Assembly (NCBI RefSeq): GCF_000518245.1
Contig: NZ_JADF01000008.1
Coordinates: 30,498 to 94,497, forward strand
Length of the DNA: 64,000 nt
Source of the DNA: Brachyspira alvinipulli ATCC 51933
GTDB lineage: Bacteria; Spirochaetota; Brachyspiria; Brachyspirales; Brachyspiraceae
Direction of reading: 5' to 3'
The position numbers and the translations under genes were made by a program. Below, one piece after another: positions 19,993-27,809 of this stretch. Positions within the stretch are counted from its first letter, which is position 1. Each line of letters opens with the position of its first letter. The notes below the pieces were generated by a model that worked only from the letters and a program-made list of their open reading frames with translations, had not been told where the DNA came from and searched no databases.

Positions 19993-22983
19993 ATGATGTT
20001 TTTTGATATTCTCTATAATATTACAATATACCCAATAGAATTTATTATAGAAACATTGTTTTATTTATTTAATGTTGTATTTAAATCAAGTTATGGTGTA
20101 AGCTTATTTTTTCTTAGTTTATGTATAAATTTTTTATCTCTTCCATTATACAATATAGCTGAATCTTGGCAGGCTAAAGAAAGAGCTATTCAAGATAAAA
20201 TGAAGCCGATGATAGATAATATAAAATCGGTATATAAAGGTGATCAAAGATATTTATTAATTAGAACTTGCCAGAGAATTAATGGTTACAAAACAATATA
20301 TGCTTTTAGAGGTACTTTAGGTCTTTTGATACAGATACCATTTTTTATGGCAGCATATAATTTTGTTCATAATTTGTCAGGATTAAGCGGTGTTTCTTTT
20401 TTTATTATTAAGGATTTATCTAAACCAGATGCTTTAATTCATATTGGTAGTTTTAGTATAAATTTACTTCCATTTTTGATGACTTTATTTAGTTTATTAG
20501 CTGGTTTTGTTTATGCTAGAAAATTAAAATTTAAAGAGAGTTTGCCATTATATATAGTTTCATTAATATTTTTATTGATATTATATAATTCACCATCCGG
20601 ACTTTTATTCTATTGGACTATTAATTGCTTATTTTCATTAATTAAAAACATTATAATAGAGTATAAACTTTATAATATATTTATTATAAATAAACATAAG
20701 CTATTAAAAATTTACAATATAGTTTTTATGGTTATTGCGGTATTATTTGTATTAATTATATTTTTATCAAATATAGAAAGAAAATGTTATTTGGATGATT
20801 TTAAATTATCTTATAAAGATGGTGAAGTATATGTATATGATGCTACTATAAAATATTATAGTAAAATATTTAAAAGTAGTGATATATTTGAAATAAAATT
20901 GAATACAGATATTTTTTTGTCAGATAGTATAAAGGGTTTATTATTCGTTGACAGTGGTATAAACACTAAATATGTAAAAATATCATTCGATAAAACTATA
21001 GAAAATATTGATGAAACTATAAATGTATATTATAGATTGTATTTAAAAGATTATGCTATAAATATTTTTTACTTGATATTAATTTTATTTATACTATTAA
21101 ATATTGGAAAAATATTTAATTTAATTTTTAATAATAATACAGCATTGAATTTTTATTTGAAAAATAGATATAAATTGATGTTAATTAGCTGTTTTGTTAT
21201 TACGATATTATCAGGAGCTTTTATACCTAGCTCATTAATAGGAGCATCTCCTCATGAATTTAAATATCCGTTTTATTTGATATTTAATGATTTATCAATG
21301 AGTATTGGGTTGTTTTTAATATATCCTCTTTTTATATATTTAATACTTCCTGAAAATATCAAAAACTATATTACATTGATATTTATTTTTCTTGTTTCTA
21401 TAATATTAGTAAATACTTTTATTATGAAAGGTAGTTATTTAAATATAAATTCTGATTTTGTGTTTGATAATACTGATTTACTTAAAGCTTCATCTAAAGA
21501 AATAGTTATAAGTATAGTATTATTTTTATTGGTTATATTAATTCTAATTTTATTTTTTAGGAAAAATAAAATGAATTTAATAATAAATGTATATTTTGTA
21601 ATAATTATTACTCTATTCTCTATTTCTATTTTCAATATTGTTAATATAGTTAAAGAGCATAATAAATTAATTAGTATATCTAGGAACAATGACCATAATA
21701 ATATAAAAATATTTAATTTATCAAAAAAAGGTGATAATATTTTTGTTATTGTATTAGATAAAGCTTTGGGTTTATATTGGTTAGATGCCTTTGAGAGATT
21801 TCCTGAGTATAAAGAAAAATTAGATGGTTTTGTGTTTTTTAAAAATAATTCTTCTTTTGGTGTTAATACTATGACCATATCTTCTTTGTATGGTGGATAT
21901 GAATATTTACCTTATGAATTAAGTATAAATGGTAACTATAATATAAAGGATAAACATAATGAATCTATACTAATGCTTCCTATGTCACTAGAAAAATATG
22001 GGTATAAATCTTCTATTTTTGAACCAGTTTATGTAAATTTAAAATCTTATACTGATTTAAGTATTTTTGAAGAATATACTAATATATCAGTATATGATTC
22101 CAGTCAATTATATATTTATTCTTTACAAAAATATCTTGGTGTTACAAATACAAATATAGATGATTATTCTTTGGAGTATCAAAAGAATAAAATGGTTAGA
22201 TTTTCTATGTTTAGAATGATGCCGATAAATTTTAGATATAATTTTTATGATAATAAAAATTGGTTTATTTATTCTATTGCTGGAGTTAATTCTACAATTT
22301 ATAATTATGCTATATTATCAAATTTAAAATATTTTATTAATATAAATGATAGTGATGATAATTACTATAATTTGTTTTATAACGGTACTACTCATGAACC
22401 ATATTTTTTTAATTCTGATTATACTGCAGGTTATGAGGCTAAAGAAGTTGATAAAAGAGATTTAGATATATATAAAAGTGATTATTCGACAAGATTCTTT
22501 TATGCAAATGCAATATCTTTAAGAGAACTTACTCATTTTATAGAATTCTTAAAAGAAAATGAAATATATGATAATACTAAAATTATATTAGTATCTGATC
22601 ATGGAGTTGAAATACAGTCTACATATCTTTACAAAAATTTAGATGGTATTGGGCAAATATCTCCATTTAATGCATTATTAATGTATAAAGATTTTAGTTC
22701 CAGAGGCAAATTAGAAATTAATACGAATCTTTCTACAATAGCAGATATGCCTTATTTAGCTACAAAGCATATTACAAATATTCAAAATTATTTTACGGGT
22801 AATTTGATAAGCAATAATTATACTAATGTAGTACATGCTATAGATATAAGAGATTTTATTAGAAATGATAATAGATATGGTTTTGATATATTTTATACAA
22901 TACAAAATGATATATTTGATATAAATAATTGGAAAAAATTTGAAATTGATTGGAATACTAAGAATGCCCGAGAAATAAAATAA
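19993..22983 (+). CDS. YidC/Oxa1-like insertase fused to a sulfatase/LtaS-like domain
   Basis: Residues 1-230 look like the YidC/Oxa1 core. A membrane span is followed by a basic helical hairpin (AIQDKMKPMIDNIKSVYKGD), then LLIQIPFFMAAYNF (the LLIQxPIFxxxY signature), and finally GLLFYWTINCLFSLIK, matching GLxLYWxxxNLFS. Next come several membrane spans (about 235-260, 350-375, 390-580) with an extracytoplasmic loop at about 265-345. From about 590 an alkaline-phosphatase-superfamily domain follows: IFVIVLDKALGLYW (first metal Asp), VNTMTISSLYGGY (likely Thr nucleophile), GTTHEPYFF and ILVSDHGVEI (metal His). Such domains in LtaS or phosphoethanolamine transferases act outside the membrane on lipid head groups. 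The role of the fusion is unknown. GGGAG precedes the start. Confidence 0.8.
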   Translation: MMFFDILYNITIYPIEFIIETLFYLFNVVFKSSYGVSLFFLSLCINFLSLPLYNIAESWQAKERAIQDKMKPMIDNIKSVYKGDQRYLLIRTCQRINGYKTIYAFRGTLGLLIQIPFFMAAYNFVHNLSGLSGVSFFIIKDLSKPDALIHIGSFSINLLPFLMTLFSLLAGFVYARKLKFKESLPLYIVSLIFLLILYNSPSGLLFYWTINCLFSLIKNIIIEYKLYNIFIINKHKLLKIYNIVFMVIAVLFVLIIFLSNIERKCYLDDFKLSYKDGEVYVYDATIKYYSKIFKSSDIFEIKLNTDIFLSDSIKGLLFVDSGINTKYVKISFDKTIENIDETINVYYRLYLKDYAINIFYLILILFILLNIGKIFNLIFNNNTALNFYLKNRYKLMLISCFVITILSGAFIPSSLIGASPHEFKYPFYLIFNDLSMSIGLFLIYPLFIYLILPENIKNYITLIFIFLVSIILVNTFIMKGSYLNINSDFVFDNTDLLKASSKEIVISIVLFLLVILILILFFRKNKMNLIINVYFVIIITLFSISIFNIVNIVKEHNKLISISRNNDHNNIKIFNLSKKGDNIFVIVLDKALGLYWLDAFERFPEYKEKLDGFVFFKNNSSFGVNTMTISSLYGGYEYLPYELSINGNYNIKDKHNESILMLPMSLEKYGYKSSIFEPVYVNLKSYTDLSIFEEYTNISVYDSSQLYIYSLQKYLGVTNTNIDDYSLEYQKNKMVRFSMFRMMPINFRYNFYDNKNWFIYSIAGVNSTIYNYAILSNLKYFININDSDDNYYNLFYNGTTHEPYFFNSDYTAGYEAKEVDKRDLDIYKSDYSTRFFYANAISLRELTHFIEFLKENEIYDNTKIILVSDHGVEIQSTYLYKNLDGIGQISPFNALLMYKDFSSRGKLEINTNLSTIADMPYLATKHITNIQNYFTGNLISNNYTNVVHAIDIRDFIRNDNRYGFDIFYTIQNDIFDINNWKKFEIDWNTKNAREIK

Positions 22984-23110: not shown

Positions 23111-24739
23111 ATGTCAAATAAAAAATTTAATTTAAAAATTGCTACAATAGCATCTTGGGTATTATTATTTTTCGCTTGGATTTTCTTTTACGCTGTAACT
23201 CAAACACGTACCCCCGTTTTTTGGGTGGTACTTGCATTATCTTCTATTTTAACTATTACAACATTGATAATAGATAGAAAAAATATTATATCTCTATTAA
23301 AAATGAGATTTGTACATAAAGCATTTTTTGGAATATTATCTCTTGTTATAATATTAGCTATACTTGTAGGGCTTTATATAATAAGTATAAACTTCCCTAT
23401 AAGATTCGATTTGACTCAAAATAAATCATATACTGTATCGCAGCAAACTATGGATGTACTTTCAAGAATAGATAGCCCTCTTTCTATAGTAGTATTAAGA
23501 TCTCCTAGTACAGATCCTACTTCAGCAGACTGGAAAGCTGATTTGTTGTTAGAACAGTATGAAAGAATAAATAAACATATAACTGTTGAATATATAAACC
23601 CTATAGAAAAACCTTCTGCTAAAAGTAAATATCAAATGACTCAGGTTGGTGAAATAGTATTTACTTATGGACAAGGAAAACAAGTTAGAGTATATAGAAA
23701 AGATTTAACTACTCAATCTAAAGTAACTTCTGATCCTTTATTTGTTGGAGAAGAAAAATTTACTCAATCTATATATACATTACTTGATTCAGAATCTTAT
23801 ACTATATATTTCACAGTAGGACATGGTGAAAGACAAATACAAGACAGAGGCGGAGAAGGTTTATCTTATGTTAAAACTTATTTGGAAAATGAAAATTATA
23901 AAGTAAAAGAATTAAATATTATACTTGAAAATATACCTACTGATGCATCATTAATAGTAATAGCAGCTCCAGTTGAAACATTCAGTGATTTTGAAATAGA
24001 TAAATTAAATAATTATGTAAAAACAGGCGGAAAACTTCTTGTTCTATATGATAGTTTCTTAGATAGAAGTAAATTTAATACTAATTTAGGTGATTTCTTA
24101 TCAGCTTGGGGATTTAAAACTAAAAATGACTATATAATAGATACAGCTTCAAGTGTTGTTATACCAGTTAATATAGTTCCTCAATATACTTCTCATCCTA
24201 TAACACAAACTCTTAAAGAAGGAAATGTATTTGCTTGTTTAGTTGTTGCAAGAAGTATATTAAGCGGAGAAAATCAATATAATGGCAGCTTTGAAAATAT
24301 AATCACTACTACTCCTCAAGGATATGGAAAAGAAGAAGCTACTTTTGATTTGTCAAGAGCTAGATTTAATCCTAAAACAGATATTTCAGGTCCAGTGCCT
24401 CTAGCTATAAGCGGTACTTATGAAATAGAAGGAAGAAAAGAACCAGCAAGAATAGTAGTATTTGGAGATGCTACATTTGCTTTGAATGCATATATTAATC
24501 CAGAACAAGGTCAGTCTGTTGATATTGCTTTTGCTGGAAATAAAGATTTATTTATGAATACAGTTGCTTATCTTTTGGAAGCAAGACAAAAAATTACTAT
24601 AAGACCAAAAGAAGCAAGCATTAAAAATCTTACTCTTACTACAACACAAACTAATTTTATTAGATATGTTGCTCAAATTGGATTGCCTTGTTTATTTGGT
24701 ATATTAGGTATACTAATTTGGTTCTTAAGAAGAAGATAA
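23111..24739 (+). CDS. GldG-like ABC transporter auxiliary protein
   Basis: The protein has two N-terminal membrane spans (about 15-50 and 68-92). A large extracytoplasmic region follows, starting RFDLTQNKSYTVSQQTMDVL, the signature of the GldG/ABC-type uncharacterised family. Inside are FTVGHGERQI and SLIVIAAPVETFSDFEIDKL, then GGKLLVLYD, a flavodoxin-like or glutamine-amidotransferase-like fold. A single C-terminal span ends in LRRR. In other bacteria it is encoded beside an ABC ATPase and a permease (GldA/GldF); neither is in this window. At 542 residues it is full length. Its role, possibly in surface or motility-linked transport, is not established here. Confidence 0.75.
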   Translation: MSNKKFNLKIATIASWVLLFFAWIFFYAVTQTRTPVFWVVLALSSILTITTLIIDRKNIISLLKMRFVHKAFFGILSLVIILAILVGLYIISINFPIRFDLTQNKSYTVSQQTMDVLSRIDSPLSIVVLRSPSTDPTSADWKADLLLEQYERINKHITVEYINPIEKPSAKSKYQMTQVGEIVFTYGQGKQVRVYRKDLTTQSKVTSDPLFVGEEKFTQSIYTLLDSESYTIYFTVGHGERQIQDRGGEGLSYVKTYLENENYKVKELNIILENIPTDASLIVIAAPVETFSDFEIDKLNNYVKTGGKLLVLYDSFLDRSKFNTNLGDFLSAWGFKTKNDYIIDTASSVVIPVNIVPQYTSHPITQTLKEGNVFACLVVARSILSGENQYNGSFENIITTTPQGYGKEEATFDLSRARFNPKTDISGPVPLAISGTYEIEGRKEPARIVVFGDATFALNAYINPEQGQSVDIAFAGNKDLFMNTVAYLLEARQKITIRPKEASIKNLTLTTTQTNFIRYVAQIGLPCLFGILGILIWFLRRR

Positions 24740-24774
24740 TATTACTATAATGAAGGTTATTAAGTTAATATAAT

Positions 24775-26058
24775 ATGAATAATATTAAAGAATTATATAA
24801 AAAATATTCATATTATATTAACTATGCTTCATTAGTATTTATCAATGGTATAGCAAGTGTATTAAATTATGTATCTTCTATTTATACTAATAGAAGTTTA
24901 TCAATATCTGATTTTGCTCATTATAATGGTATAATTAATATATATTCCATAATAGTTTTAACAGTTTCTAGTTTTAGTTATTATATAATGCATCACTATA
25001 AAGATGATGAAGATGCAAAAGCTTATTGGGCTTATGGATATATAATTGCAATTATAATATTTATAGCATATATCTTATCAATACCGCTCATGGATATATT
25101 ATTCAATATTAAAAGTTACAGTTCGCTTTTTATAATGTCCATTGGAATATTTGCTTCAATTTTGGTTATAGTTTCACAGTCTATATTAAAGATTAATAAT
25201 TATATAGCTTATGATTATATGGCAAGTCTGACAGCAATATTCATAGCTAAAATATTACTCTTGGCATATTTTATTATAACAGGATTGACATTAGAAAAAT
25301 CAATTATATCAGTATCATTATTTTGCGTTTTATATCTTATTATAAATTTGATAGAATTAAAGAAAGTTAATCTACCCTATTATACATCTTTTAAAAATAT
25401 AAAAAAATATTTTACCTCTCCAAATTTATCTGTACTATTAAGATATATAATTAATATAGTTGTTATAAACTTTATATTTAATTGGATATCATTAAGCGAT
25501 GTTTTAATGGCAAACAGATATTTGGATAAAACAAGTGCAGGCTACTACTCTACTATATCATTGATAATAAAAATGTTTTTCTATATTGGCACTCCTATAG
25601 CTTCAGTAATGTTTTCTTATATATTAATAGCTATGAGAGAAAATAATAAAAGCAAAGAAAAAAAGGTAGTTTATTATTCTATAGCTCTTTTGGTATTAGC
25701 TTCACTTTTTCTATCAATATTTTTAATTGTATTTGCTAAGCAGATAGTATTAATACAATTTACAAGCAGATATGAGGCTATCATCCCATTAATTCCGCAG
25801 GCTGTAATATTTGGTTTTTCTCTAGCTTTTACAGTACTTACATTTAATTATGGGCTTGCTTATAAACTATTTGCTCCATTTTACGGATACTTGATTATAT
25901 TTGCTTATGTATATTTCTCATTAAGAAACGGACTTAGAAGCTTTGAAAATTTTATGTTCATAATGAAAATATTTTTTATAGCATTACTTATATATAATAT
26001 TTTAATTATATTAATACATAGAATAATATTAAAAACTAATGAAAAACTAAAGTTATAA
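24775..26058 (+). CDS. MOP-superfamily flippase (Wzx-like membrane protein)
   Basis: The 427 residues are almost wholly hydrophobic, with about 12 spans. The start, SLVFINGIASVLNYVSSIYTNRSLSISDFAHYNGI, is the typical polysaccharide-flippase opening (small exchange near the first helix, then xLSxxDFGxYN). It would move a lipid-linked sugar or oligosaccharide across the inner membrane. It lies 35 bp after the GldG-like gene and may share its transcript. No glycosyltransferases are nearby, so its substrate is unknown. Confidence 0.75.
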   Translation: MNNIKELYKKYSYYINYASLVFINGIASVLNYVSSIYTNRSLSISDFAHYNGIINIYSIIVLTVSSFSYYIMHHYKDDEDAKAYWAYGYIIAIIIFIAYILSIPLMDILFNIKSYSSLFIMSIGIFASILVIVSQSILKINNYIAYDYMASLTAIFIAKILLLAYFIITGLTLEKSIISVSLFCVLYLIINLIELKKVNLPYYTSFKNIKKYFTSPNLSVLLRYIINIVVINFIFNWISLSDVLMANRYLDKTSAGYYSTISLIIKMFFYIGTPIASVMFSYILIAMRENNKSKEKKVVYYSIALLVLASLFLSIFLIVFAKQIVLIQFTSRYEAIIPLIPQAVIFGFSLAFTVLTFNYGLAYKLFAPFYGYLIIFAYVYFSLRNGLRSFENFMFIMKIFFIALLIYNILIILIHRIILKTNEKLKL

Positions 26059-26095: not shown

Positions 26096-26899
26096 TTAGA
26101 ATCTACCTCCTTTTTCAGAAATTAGCTTCGTTATTTTCCTATTATTTCTAGTAAATGCATAGTATAATGCTGTGTTTCCATCTTTATCTTTAGCATTAAG
26201 ATCAGCTCCAGCTTCTATCAATAACTCAGCTAATTCTGTATTATAATCAAAAATTACCCACATTAAAGGAGTAATATTTTCTAATTGTATATCTCTTGAA
26301 TCATCTTTTATAGATAATCTAGTATTAATTTTAGCTCCATGCTCTATTAATAATTTTGCTACTTCTTTATCTACATTAAATGTCAAAGGAGTAAAATCTT
26401 TTAAATATAATCCATCTGTCTTGAATGTGATTTTTGTATTTACATTAGCTTTTCTTTTTATAAGCATTTTTGATATGTCTGTTTTCTCACGTTGTATAGC
26501 ATGTACTAAAGCTGTAAATCCTGCCTTATCTTTTATATTAACATTAGCCCCTTTTTCTATTAGAATTTTTGTTATTTCATATCGCTCATAGATAATAGAT
26601 AAGATTAAAGGTGTAGCACCGCTTTCTTTCTCTTTTTTATTAAGATCAGCACCTTTTTCTATTAGAATCTTTGCTATTTCATCTTGCTTATAAATAATAG
26701 ATAAGATTAAAGGGGTAATACCATCCATGAAATTTACATTTATATCAGCTTTTTTATTATTTAAATAATCCAAAACCTCTTCTTTATCACCATTCGCTAT
26801 ATACGATGCAAATTCTTTTTCATCTTTACTAGGCTCTGGATACAAAGCTTGAAAACTAAATAAAGCACACAATACTGCCATTAATACAATTTTTTTCAT
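26096..26899 (-). CDS. Exported ankyrin-repeat protein A
   Basis: It has a signal peptide (MKKIVLMAVLCALFSFQALYP) and then about seven ankyrin repeats, with signatures such as GITPLILSIIYKQDEIAKILIEKGADLN and GNTALYYAFTRNN. Exported ankyrin proteins probably bind other proteins in the periplasm or at the surface; no enzyme domain is present. A paralogue with the same signal peptide and promoter lies just upstream (27111-27809), showing tandem duplication. This copy has one repeat more than its neighbour. AGAGG precedes the start. Confidence 0.85.
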   Translation of the reverse strand: MKKIVLMAVLCALFSFQALYPEPSKDEKEFASYIANGDKEEVLDYLNNKKADINVNFMDGITPLILSIIYKQDEIAKILIEKGADLNKKEKESGATPLILSIIYERYEITKILIEKGANVNIKDKAGFTALVHAIQREKTDISKMLIKRKANVNTKITFKTDGLYLKDFTPLTFNVDKEVAKLLIEHGAKINTRLSIKDDSRDIQLENITPLMWVIFDYNTELAELLIEAGADLNAKDKDGNTALYYAFTRNNRKITKLISEKGGRF

Positions 26900-26928
26900 A
26901 TAAACCTCTTCTTAAATATTCTATACAA

Positions 26929-26957
26929 AATATATACTGATTATATTGTTTTGTCAA
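26929..26957 (-). promoter_or_regulatory. Promoter of ankyrin gene A
   Basis: A consensus TTGACA (26957-26952) and TATATT (26934-26929) are 17 bp apart on the minus strand. The block is similar to the promoter of ankyrin gene B. Confidence 0.7.
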
Positions 26958-27110
26958 TTATGTACTTCATTAGAGTATACAATTTTATGATGTTCACATT
27001 TAATTACTTATGCTATTTTATGTATATTCGTAATATTTGCATATTTAACTTTTTATAGTTATTATAATTTTAAATATATAAACAATTAACTGAAAACTTT
27101 ATATTTTTTA

Positions 27111-27809
27111 TTATTTAGCACCTTTTGATATAAGCAGCTGTTCTATTTTAGTATTGTTTTTTTCTTTCGCATAATCTAATGCTGTTTTTCCGATTTTATC
27201 TTTAGTATTGATATCAGCTCCTGATTCTATTAATAACTGAGCTATTTCAGTATTATCATTCAAAATAAACCACATTAAAGGTGTAGCATTTTCTAATTTT
27301 ATATTTCGTCCAGGATATTTTGCAGTAAATTTTATATTAATTTTAGCACCAGCATTTATTAATGATTGCGCTACTTCTTTATTTTCATTAACTATTAAAG
27401 GAGTAAAATTTTTTATATGTACTCCATTTTCATTTAATGATACTTTTGTATTTACATCAGCTTTTTTTTCTATAAGTAGTTTTGATACTTCTGTTCTATT
27501 ATACATTATAGAATGTATTAAAGCTGTTAATCCTGCTTTGTCTTTTCTATTAAGATTTGCACCTTTTTCTATAAGCATTTTTGCTATTTCATCTTGCTTA
27601 AAAATAATAGAAAATATTAATGGGGTTGCACTATCTTCTATTATAGCATTTATATTAATTTTCTTATTATCTATAAAATTTGAAACTTCTTCAATATCAC
27701 CAGATGCTATATACGATAAGAATAGTGCTTCATTTTCAGCTTTTTCTGGATACAGTGCATTAAAACTAAATAAAGTATACAATACTGCCATTAATACAAT
27801 TTTTTTCAT
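27111..27809 (-). CDS. Exported ankyrin-repeat protein B
   Basis: It has a signal peptide (MKKIVLMAVLYTLFSFNALYPE) and about six ankyrin repeats, for example SATPLIFSIIFKQDEIAKMLIEKGANLN and IGKTALDYAKEKNN. It is a clear paralogue of the gene at 26096-26899: the signal peptides differ at only a few positions and the repeats align one for one, except for one repeat missing here. AGAGG precedes the ATG. There is no terminator between the copies, but each has its own promoter. Confidence 0.85.
   Translation of the reverse strand: MKKIVLMAVLYTLFSFNALYPEKAENEALFLSYIASGDIEEVSNFIDNKKININAIIEDSATPLIFSIIFKQDEIAKMLIEKGANLNRKDKAGLTALIHSIMYNRTEVSKLLIEKKADVNTKVSLNENGVHIKNFTPLIVNENKEVAQSLINAGAKINIKFTAKYPGRNIKLENATPLMWFILNDNTEIAQLLIESGADINTKDKIGKTALDYAKEKNNTKIEQLLISKGAK

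Follow-up and report, generated by a model that had tools for sequence, protein, structure and literature searches.

The window, a stretch of 64,000 nucleotides from a contig of Brachyspira alvinipulli ATCC 51933, carries a fused gene (Table 1) whose product runs from a YidC-like domain through seven further membrane spans to an extracytoplasmic domain of the alkaline phosphatase superfamily. A first-pass annotation of the sequence had described it as a YidC/Oxa1-like insertase joined by extra membrane spans to a sulfatase/LtaS-like domain, and the reading frame was recovered exactly at the position given there, with every motif that had been quoted. The extra spans were likewise found, about seven by hydropathy after the YidC-like domain (residues 243–261, 361–379, 395–413, 434–452, 460–478, 504–522 and 529–547), and the charges of the loops place the C-terminal domain outside the cytoplasm. 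The beta-rich stretch sits between spans 6 and 7 and is missing from the aligned paralog L015. A full-length AF2 model had a pLDDT of 52, too poor for relative placement of the domains. Chance or a sequencing artefact was ruled out as the origin of the fusion, because 35 full-length relatives share the domain order and the catalytic residues.

Table 1. Features of the fused gene; positions are counted from the first nucleotide of the window.
Feature	Position	Strand	Basis or remark
Whole fused gene	19993..22983	+	ATG start, 996 aa, without internal stop
YidC/Oxa1-like domain, residues 34-223	20092..20661	+	PF02096 E 1.6e-21; Foldseek
Groove position Asn46	20128..20130	+	Equivalent of YidC Arg/Lys (E. 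coli R366, B. halodurans/S. mutans R73)
Membrane span 6, residues 243-261	20719..20775	+	Hydropathy
Extracytoplasmic beta-rich stretch, residues about 262-352	20776..21048	+	Secondary structure of low-confidence model
Membrane spans 7-12, residues 361-547	21073..21633	+	Hydropathy, loop charges
Alkaline-phosphatase-superfamily domain, EptA/LtaS type (predicted), residues 574-996	21712..22980	+	Foldseek, profile matches
Asp589, metal ligand	21757..21759	+	Aligns with EptA Glu244 in one of two alignments
Thr626, presumed nucleophile	21868..21870	+	Aligns with EptA Thr282 (hhalign, MAFFT)
His801, active-site His	22393..22395	+	Aligns with EptA His385
Asp869-His870, metal ligands	22597..22602	+	Align with EptA Asp455-His456

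The neighbours of the window copy are dxr, a GldG-like protein and a MATE-like protein; none is a gene for Glyphos_transf (PF04464), a partner described below. The GldG-like ABC auxiliary protein (PF09822) and the weak MATE-like protein lie directly 3' of the fusion (23111-26058), an order that is conserved in loci L006 and L007. They are followed at 26096-27809 by tandem paralogous ankyrin-repeat-like proteins with signal-peptide-like starts, of which the relative L007 has a third copy.

The N-terminal domain was matched by PF02096 (60KD_IMP) with a score of 77 bits (cut-off 35), and the YidC Pfam match was present in all 22 relatives. A model of residues 1–260 (pLDDT 59, moderate confidence) was assigned by Foldseek to the YidC structures 3wo6 and 3wo7 with a TM-score by target of 0.62, matches with E below 0.1 being exclusively to YidC, so that the proposed YidC part was confirmed by structure prediction as well as by profile. 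Only YidC models were hit in NCBIfam, all below their cut-offs, and there is no dedicated family for the fusion. The module also has motifs of its own, IKxVFKGDER and QIPFFxAAY. The separate canonical yidC that the annotation had suggested looking for is present in the same genome (one gene, 618 aa), together with four fusions of roughly 900–1000 aa each: the window copy, two on contig C4 at about 138–152 kb and one on contig C9.

In the window copy the C-terminal domain stayed under the Pfam cut-offs (Phosphodiest 0.0033, Sulfatase 0.13), while Sulfatase (PF00884) was matched by 16 of the 22 relatives at E <= 0.001. Searching Foldseek with the low-confidence full-length model returned MCR-1, LtaS and YejM (E about 1e-5, probability 1.00) as well as sulfatases; the profile matches were to sulfatases, LtaS and MCR-1, and also to choline-sulfatase and phosphonate monoester hydrolase. 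Membership of the alkaline phosphatase superfamily, as first proposed, is further borne out by intact metal ligands, since D589, T626, H801, D869 and H870 are invariant in 35/35 aligned full-length relatives. T626 was aligned onto E. coli EptA T282 by hhalign and by two MAFFT alignments, and D869/H870 onto EptA D455/H456 by the MAFFT alignments; by motif comparison, we take the MCR-1 nucleophile T285 to be the EptA T282 position. A type I sulfatase was ruled out, as the C/S-x-P-x-R formylglycine motif is absent and NTMTISSLYGGY is found with the invariant Thr626; 'sulfatase' was therefore the wrong catalytic type. The alignment of Thr626 with EptA T282 and the missing formylglycine motif lead to the prediction that the enzyme is a membrane phosphoalcohol transferase of the EptA/LtaS type.

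Of 296 sampled Spirochaetota genomes, 65 were strongly matched by a profile built from the C-terminal domain of the fusion, and most of these matches fell in open frames of 850–1030 aa. The fusion is a widespread spirochaete family and not a singular event. In the public genome collection every relative that turned up was from Brachyspira, and viral contigs, phages and plasmids contained no relative apart from a canonical-like YidC match on one plasmid. Similar sequences presumably occur in polysaccharide clusters of Bacillota and Bacteroidota.

Several fusion loci have a layout of their own. Tandem arrays of three to four consecutive or nearly consecutive fusion genes were seen in L047 (7665-19900) and L050 (7111-15527), perhaps one copy for each acceptor or donor. 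In a sister genus of Brachyspira (L059 5588-15665), two near-identical fusions flank a lipid transporter set that looks Mla-type by eye, with three MlaD-like proteins, an ABC ATPase and an MlaE-like permease. In G173, a genome that looks complete, fusion genes next to Glyphos_transf (L071 12709-19900) appear broken into a YidC-like and an enzyme ORF, whether by decay, by a frameshift or by natural fission.

The partner gene encodes a CDP-alcohol phosphotransferase-like protein, Glyphos_transf, which the Pfam model (PF04464) covers partly and which has a conserved N-terminal YIDPGTGS-hydrophobic segment (the DPGTGS membrane segment). Glyphos_transf was found in 65/296 genomes and the fusion in 65/296, with both in 62 (Fisher 3e-56, kinship ignored). 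Of 77 Glyphos_transf genes, 48 directly adjoin a fusion and share its strand, and 65 lie within 5 kb of one, as measured with an approximate 5' end for the fusion. Within Brachyspiraceae alone, 13 genomes have both, 3 the fusion only, none Glyphos_transf only and 13 neither; the three fusion-only genomes are assemblies 85–91% complete. Nine near-complete Brachyspira genomes (G009, G058, G083, G088, G108, G123, G132, G136 and G151) have neither gene; the trait is therefore variable within the genus, and surface differences may rest on it.

The other genes in the operons point to what might be transferred. In some fusion operons there are genes for PEP mutase, phosphonopyruvate decarboxylase and a 2-aminoethylphosphonate (AEP) transaminase with a nucleotidyltransferase. 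The B. alvinipulli genome itself has, outside the window, a complete AEP set flanked by the C4 fusion pair (L013/L014), made up of PEP mutase, phosphonopyruvate decarboxylase, AEP transaminase, a LicC-like nucleotidyltransferase and Glyphos_transf (PF04464); a search of the literature on phosphonates in Brachyspira found no paper on this gene set. PEP mutase was present in 22/65 fusion genomes, B. alvinipulli included, against 14/231 others. Phosphonate as sole or general substrate was ruled out on this count; AEP would be one substrate among others. In other operons a LicC-LicA fusion (nucleotidyltransferase with choline/ethanolamine kinase) occurs with the ethanolamine transporter EutH. Other Brachyspira have this pair next to the YidC-enzyme fusion (L010 3377-7492, L012 11156-15295, L061 and L075). 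In genomes that seem Treponemataceae-like (the family is a guess), Glyphos_transf adjoins a fusion of a nucleotidyltransferase with a HisC/CobD-like aminotransferase (L060 11795-13762, L073 8534-10600), perhaps a route from a phosphorylated amino acid to a CDP-amino-alcohol. Judged by gene content, the theme common to these operons is a putative CDP-activated amino alcohol or aminophosphonate. Activation to CDP-AEP by PntC-type enzymes for surface tailoring is established (PMC6697681). The idea of a lipid-modifying enzyme in the first-pass annotation thus gains from the operon context, with its AEP and CDP-amino-alcohol genes, which supports the prediction of a lipid- or surface-modifying enzyme.

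The two halves also occur apart. Three genomes have Glyphos_transf and no detected fusion (G092, G182 and G221). In G092 and G182 an operon-like run consists of a solo YidC-like protein (227 or 280 aa; PF02096 2.5e-23 and 1.2e-21), Glyphos_transf and a sulfatase-family membrane protein of roughly 600 aa (PF00884 1.4e-8 in G092, the G182 counterpart being 55% identical). The small solo YidC-like gene lies directly 5' of Glyphos_transf, and the runs adjoin PEP mutase, the decarboxylase and an AEP-transaminase/nucleotidyltransferase fusion. The truncated contig of G221 carries Glyphos_transf and two sulfatase-family membrane proteins. Two kinds of protein that are fused in most genomes thus stand apart in others, in the same context, which is the strongest argument, from gene arrangement, that the YidC-like protein and the sulfatase-family enzyme would act together. 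That the unfused outer domain is simply a cut-off half of the fusion was rejected, as the wide fusion profile gave no match to it at E 1e-5; in hhalign only a stretch around the nucleophile aligned between the two. In the tree the solo YidC-like proteins are placed within the fused copies; they may have arisen by fission, for which this nesting is not decisive.

From this we propose, at about an even chance, that the fusion is a phospho(no)transferase of the EptA/LtaS type which decorates a surface lipid or glycan, with the YidC-derived part either handling a lipid-linked donor or coupling the enzymes. The group transferred is probably an amino-alcohol phosphate or phosphonate, that is 2-aminoethylphosphonate, phosphoethanolamine or phosphocholine. 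In this scheme we infer every catalytic step, the identity of donor and acceptor and the handling of lipid by the YidC part, as follows. Cytidylyltransferases of the LicC/PntC type would make the CDP-activated amino alcohol or aminophosphonate in the cytoplasm, and Glyphos_transf, held by its N-terminal DPGTGS anchor, would move the activated group onto a membrane-bound acceptor at the inner face. The YidC-derived module and the spans that follow it would then carry the lipid-linked product to the outer face, or couple the two enzymes; the shortest operons contain no other recurring transporter that could connect both membrane faces. Finally, the extracytoplasmic domain would load the group on Thr626 with its metal site and hand it to the final acceptor. 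The lipid-moving role would be chemically reasonable by analogy, because YidC scrambles lipids in vitro (PMC10491306, preprint). The stronger version, in which a YidC/Oxa1 insertase has turned into a dedicated flippase or scramblase, so that one protein both flips a headgroup-modified lipid donor across the inner membrane and uses it for surface phosphonate or phosphate tailoring, is in our view rather unlikely.

Coupling could also be the whole function. The YidC-like groove would then bind the DPGTGS helix of Glyphos_transf as a docking scaffold and join the cytoplasmic and outer enzymes, and no lipid would pass. The Glyphos protein is the closest partner both by gene order and by phyletic pattern, its YIDPGTGS-hydrophobic segment is conserved, and the gene order of the unfused form fits as well; however, some fusion copies, that of the window among them, lie away from any Glyphos gene, and we hold pure docking to be improbable.

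Less probable still, the module would work as an insertase or chaperone dedicated to one of the pathway's membrane proteins, for instance Glyphos_transf or the membrane part of the fusion itself. The YidC fold and most of the core are kept, but the genome also encodes a canonical YidC, and the positive charge of the groove is missing. At the position of the groove charge, Asn, Thr or Ser was found in 43/43 YidC-like copies (Asn in both solo proteins), against Lys or Arg in 20/20 canonical YidCs that could be aligned, the majority of which come from these same genomes; a 21st canonical YidC, taken in its proper reading frame, has Lys as well, which brings the count to 21/21. This positive charge has been stated to be strictly conserved across all YidC homologs (2022 study, PMC8920935), and its absence from every YidC-like copy suggests, at the level of sequence, that insertase activity may have been lost. 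The groove residue is still polar, and in E. coli YidC a neutral residue is tolerated there if residue 517 is aromatic (PMC8920935). An invariant Trp208 was matched by eye to residue 517, so insertase activity could persist despite the missing charge. In the tree, a single branch with 100/100 support divides the YidC-like copies from the canonical ones, which sets the module apart as a separate clade. Because the charge is missing, the label 'insertase' would describe the ancestry of the YidC part and not necessarily its function.

Least probable of all is an outer domain that acts as a hydrolase (phosphodiesterase or sulfatase) trimming or recycling surface decorations: the superfamily and the profile matches do include hydrolases, but the invariant nucleophile is a Thr outside any formylglycine motif, it aligns with the phosphoethanolamine transferase EptA, and the fusion genes sit in biosynthetic operons.

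The YidC family is known as insertases, and the lipid scrambling by purified YidC is without an assigned physiological use; a YidC module that lacks the groove charge and is tied to headgroup-transfer enzymes would offer a concrete example of a non-insertase role, in which an insertase fold may have found a second use in the construction of the cell surface. In spirochaetes (Treponema, Brachyspira), where little is understood of the cell surface, the proposed transferase also suggests a late step that has been missing from phosphonate and phospho-amino-alcohol tailoring. For such genes the automatic label 'membrane protein insertase YidC' would mislead.

The novelty that had been claimed for the architecture holds in one respect, as a literature search found no paper describing YidC joined to a domain of the sulfatase/alkaline phosphatase superfamily, or YidC with LicD; the fusion is however not a one-off, given the 65/296 Spirochaetota genomes that carry it. 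Known systems resemble it in part. The Glyphos_transf partner belongs to the same Pfam family (PF04464) as the CDP-glycerol glycerophosphotransferases TagB/TagF of teichoic acid synthesis, and differs from them by its DPGTGS membrane anchor, the partial coverage by the model and the pairing with a YidC-enzyme fusion. Pnt pathways (PMC6697681) have genes for PEP mutase, decarboxylase, AEP transaminase and nucleotidyltransferase in common with some of the fusion operons, whereas the Pnt paper names LicD-like transferases and glycosyltransferases and its text contains neither YidC, insertase nor sulfatase. With YidC/Oxa1 insertases the fusion shares the five-span core fold, the C1 hairpin region and PF02096; unlike them, its module has no groove charge (43/43), has its own motifs, forms a separate clade, is fused to an enzyme and occurs beside a normal yidC. 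Enzymes of the EptA/MCR and LtaS/YejM types are like the fusion in their N-terminal spans, extracytoplasmic catalytic domain and matching Thr nucleophile and metal ligands, but they lack a YidC fold and their own spans number about five, where the fusion has a YidC-like domain and about seven spans ahead of the catalytic domain. What we rate as new, with its breadth judged within Spirochaetota, is a predicted EptA/LtaS-type transferase with a YidC-derived membrane module.
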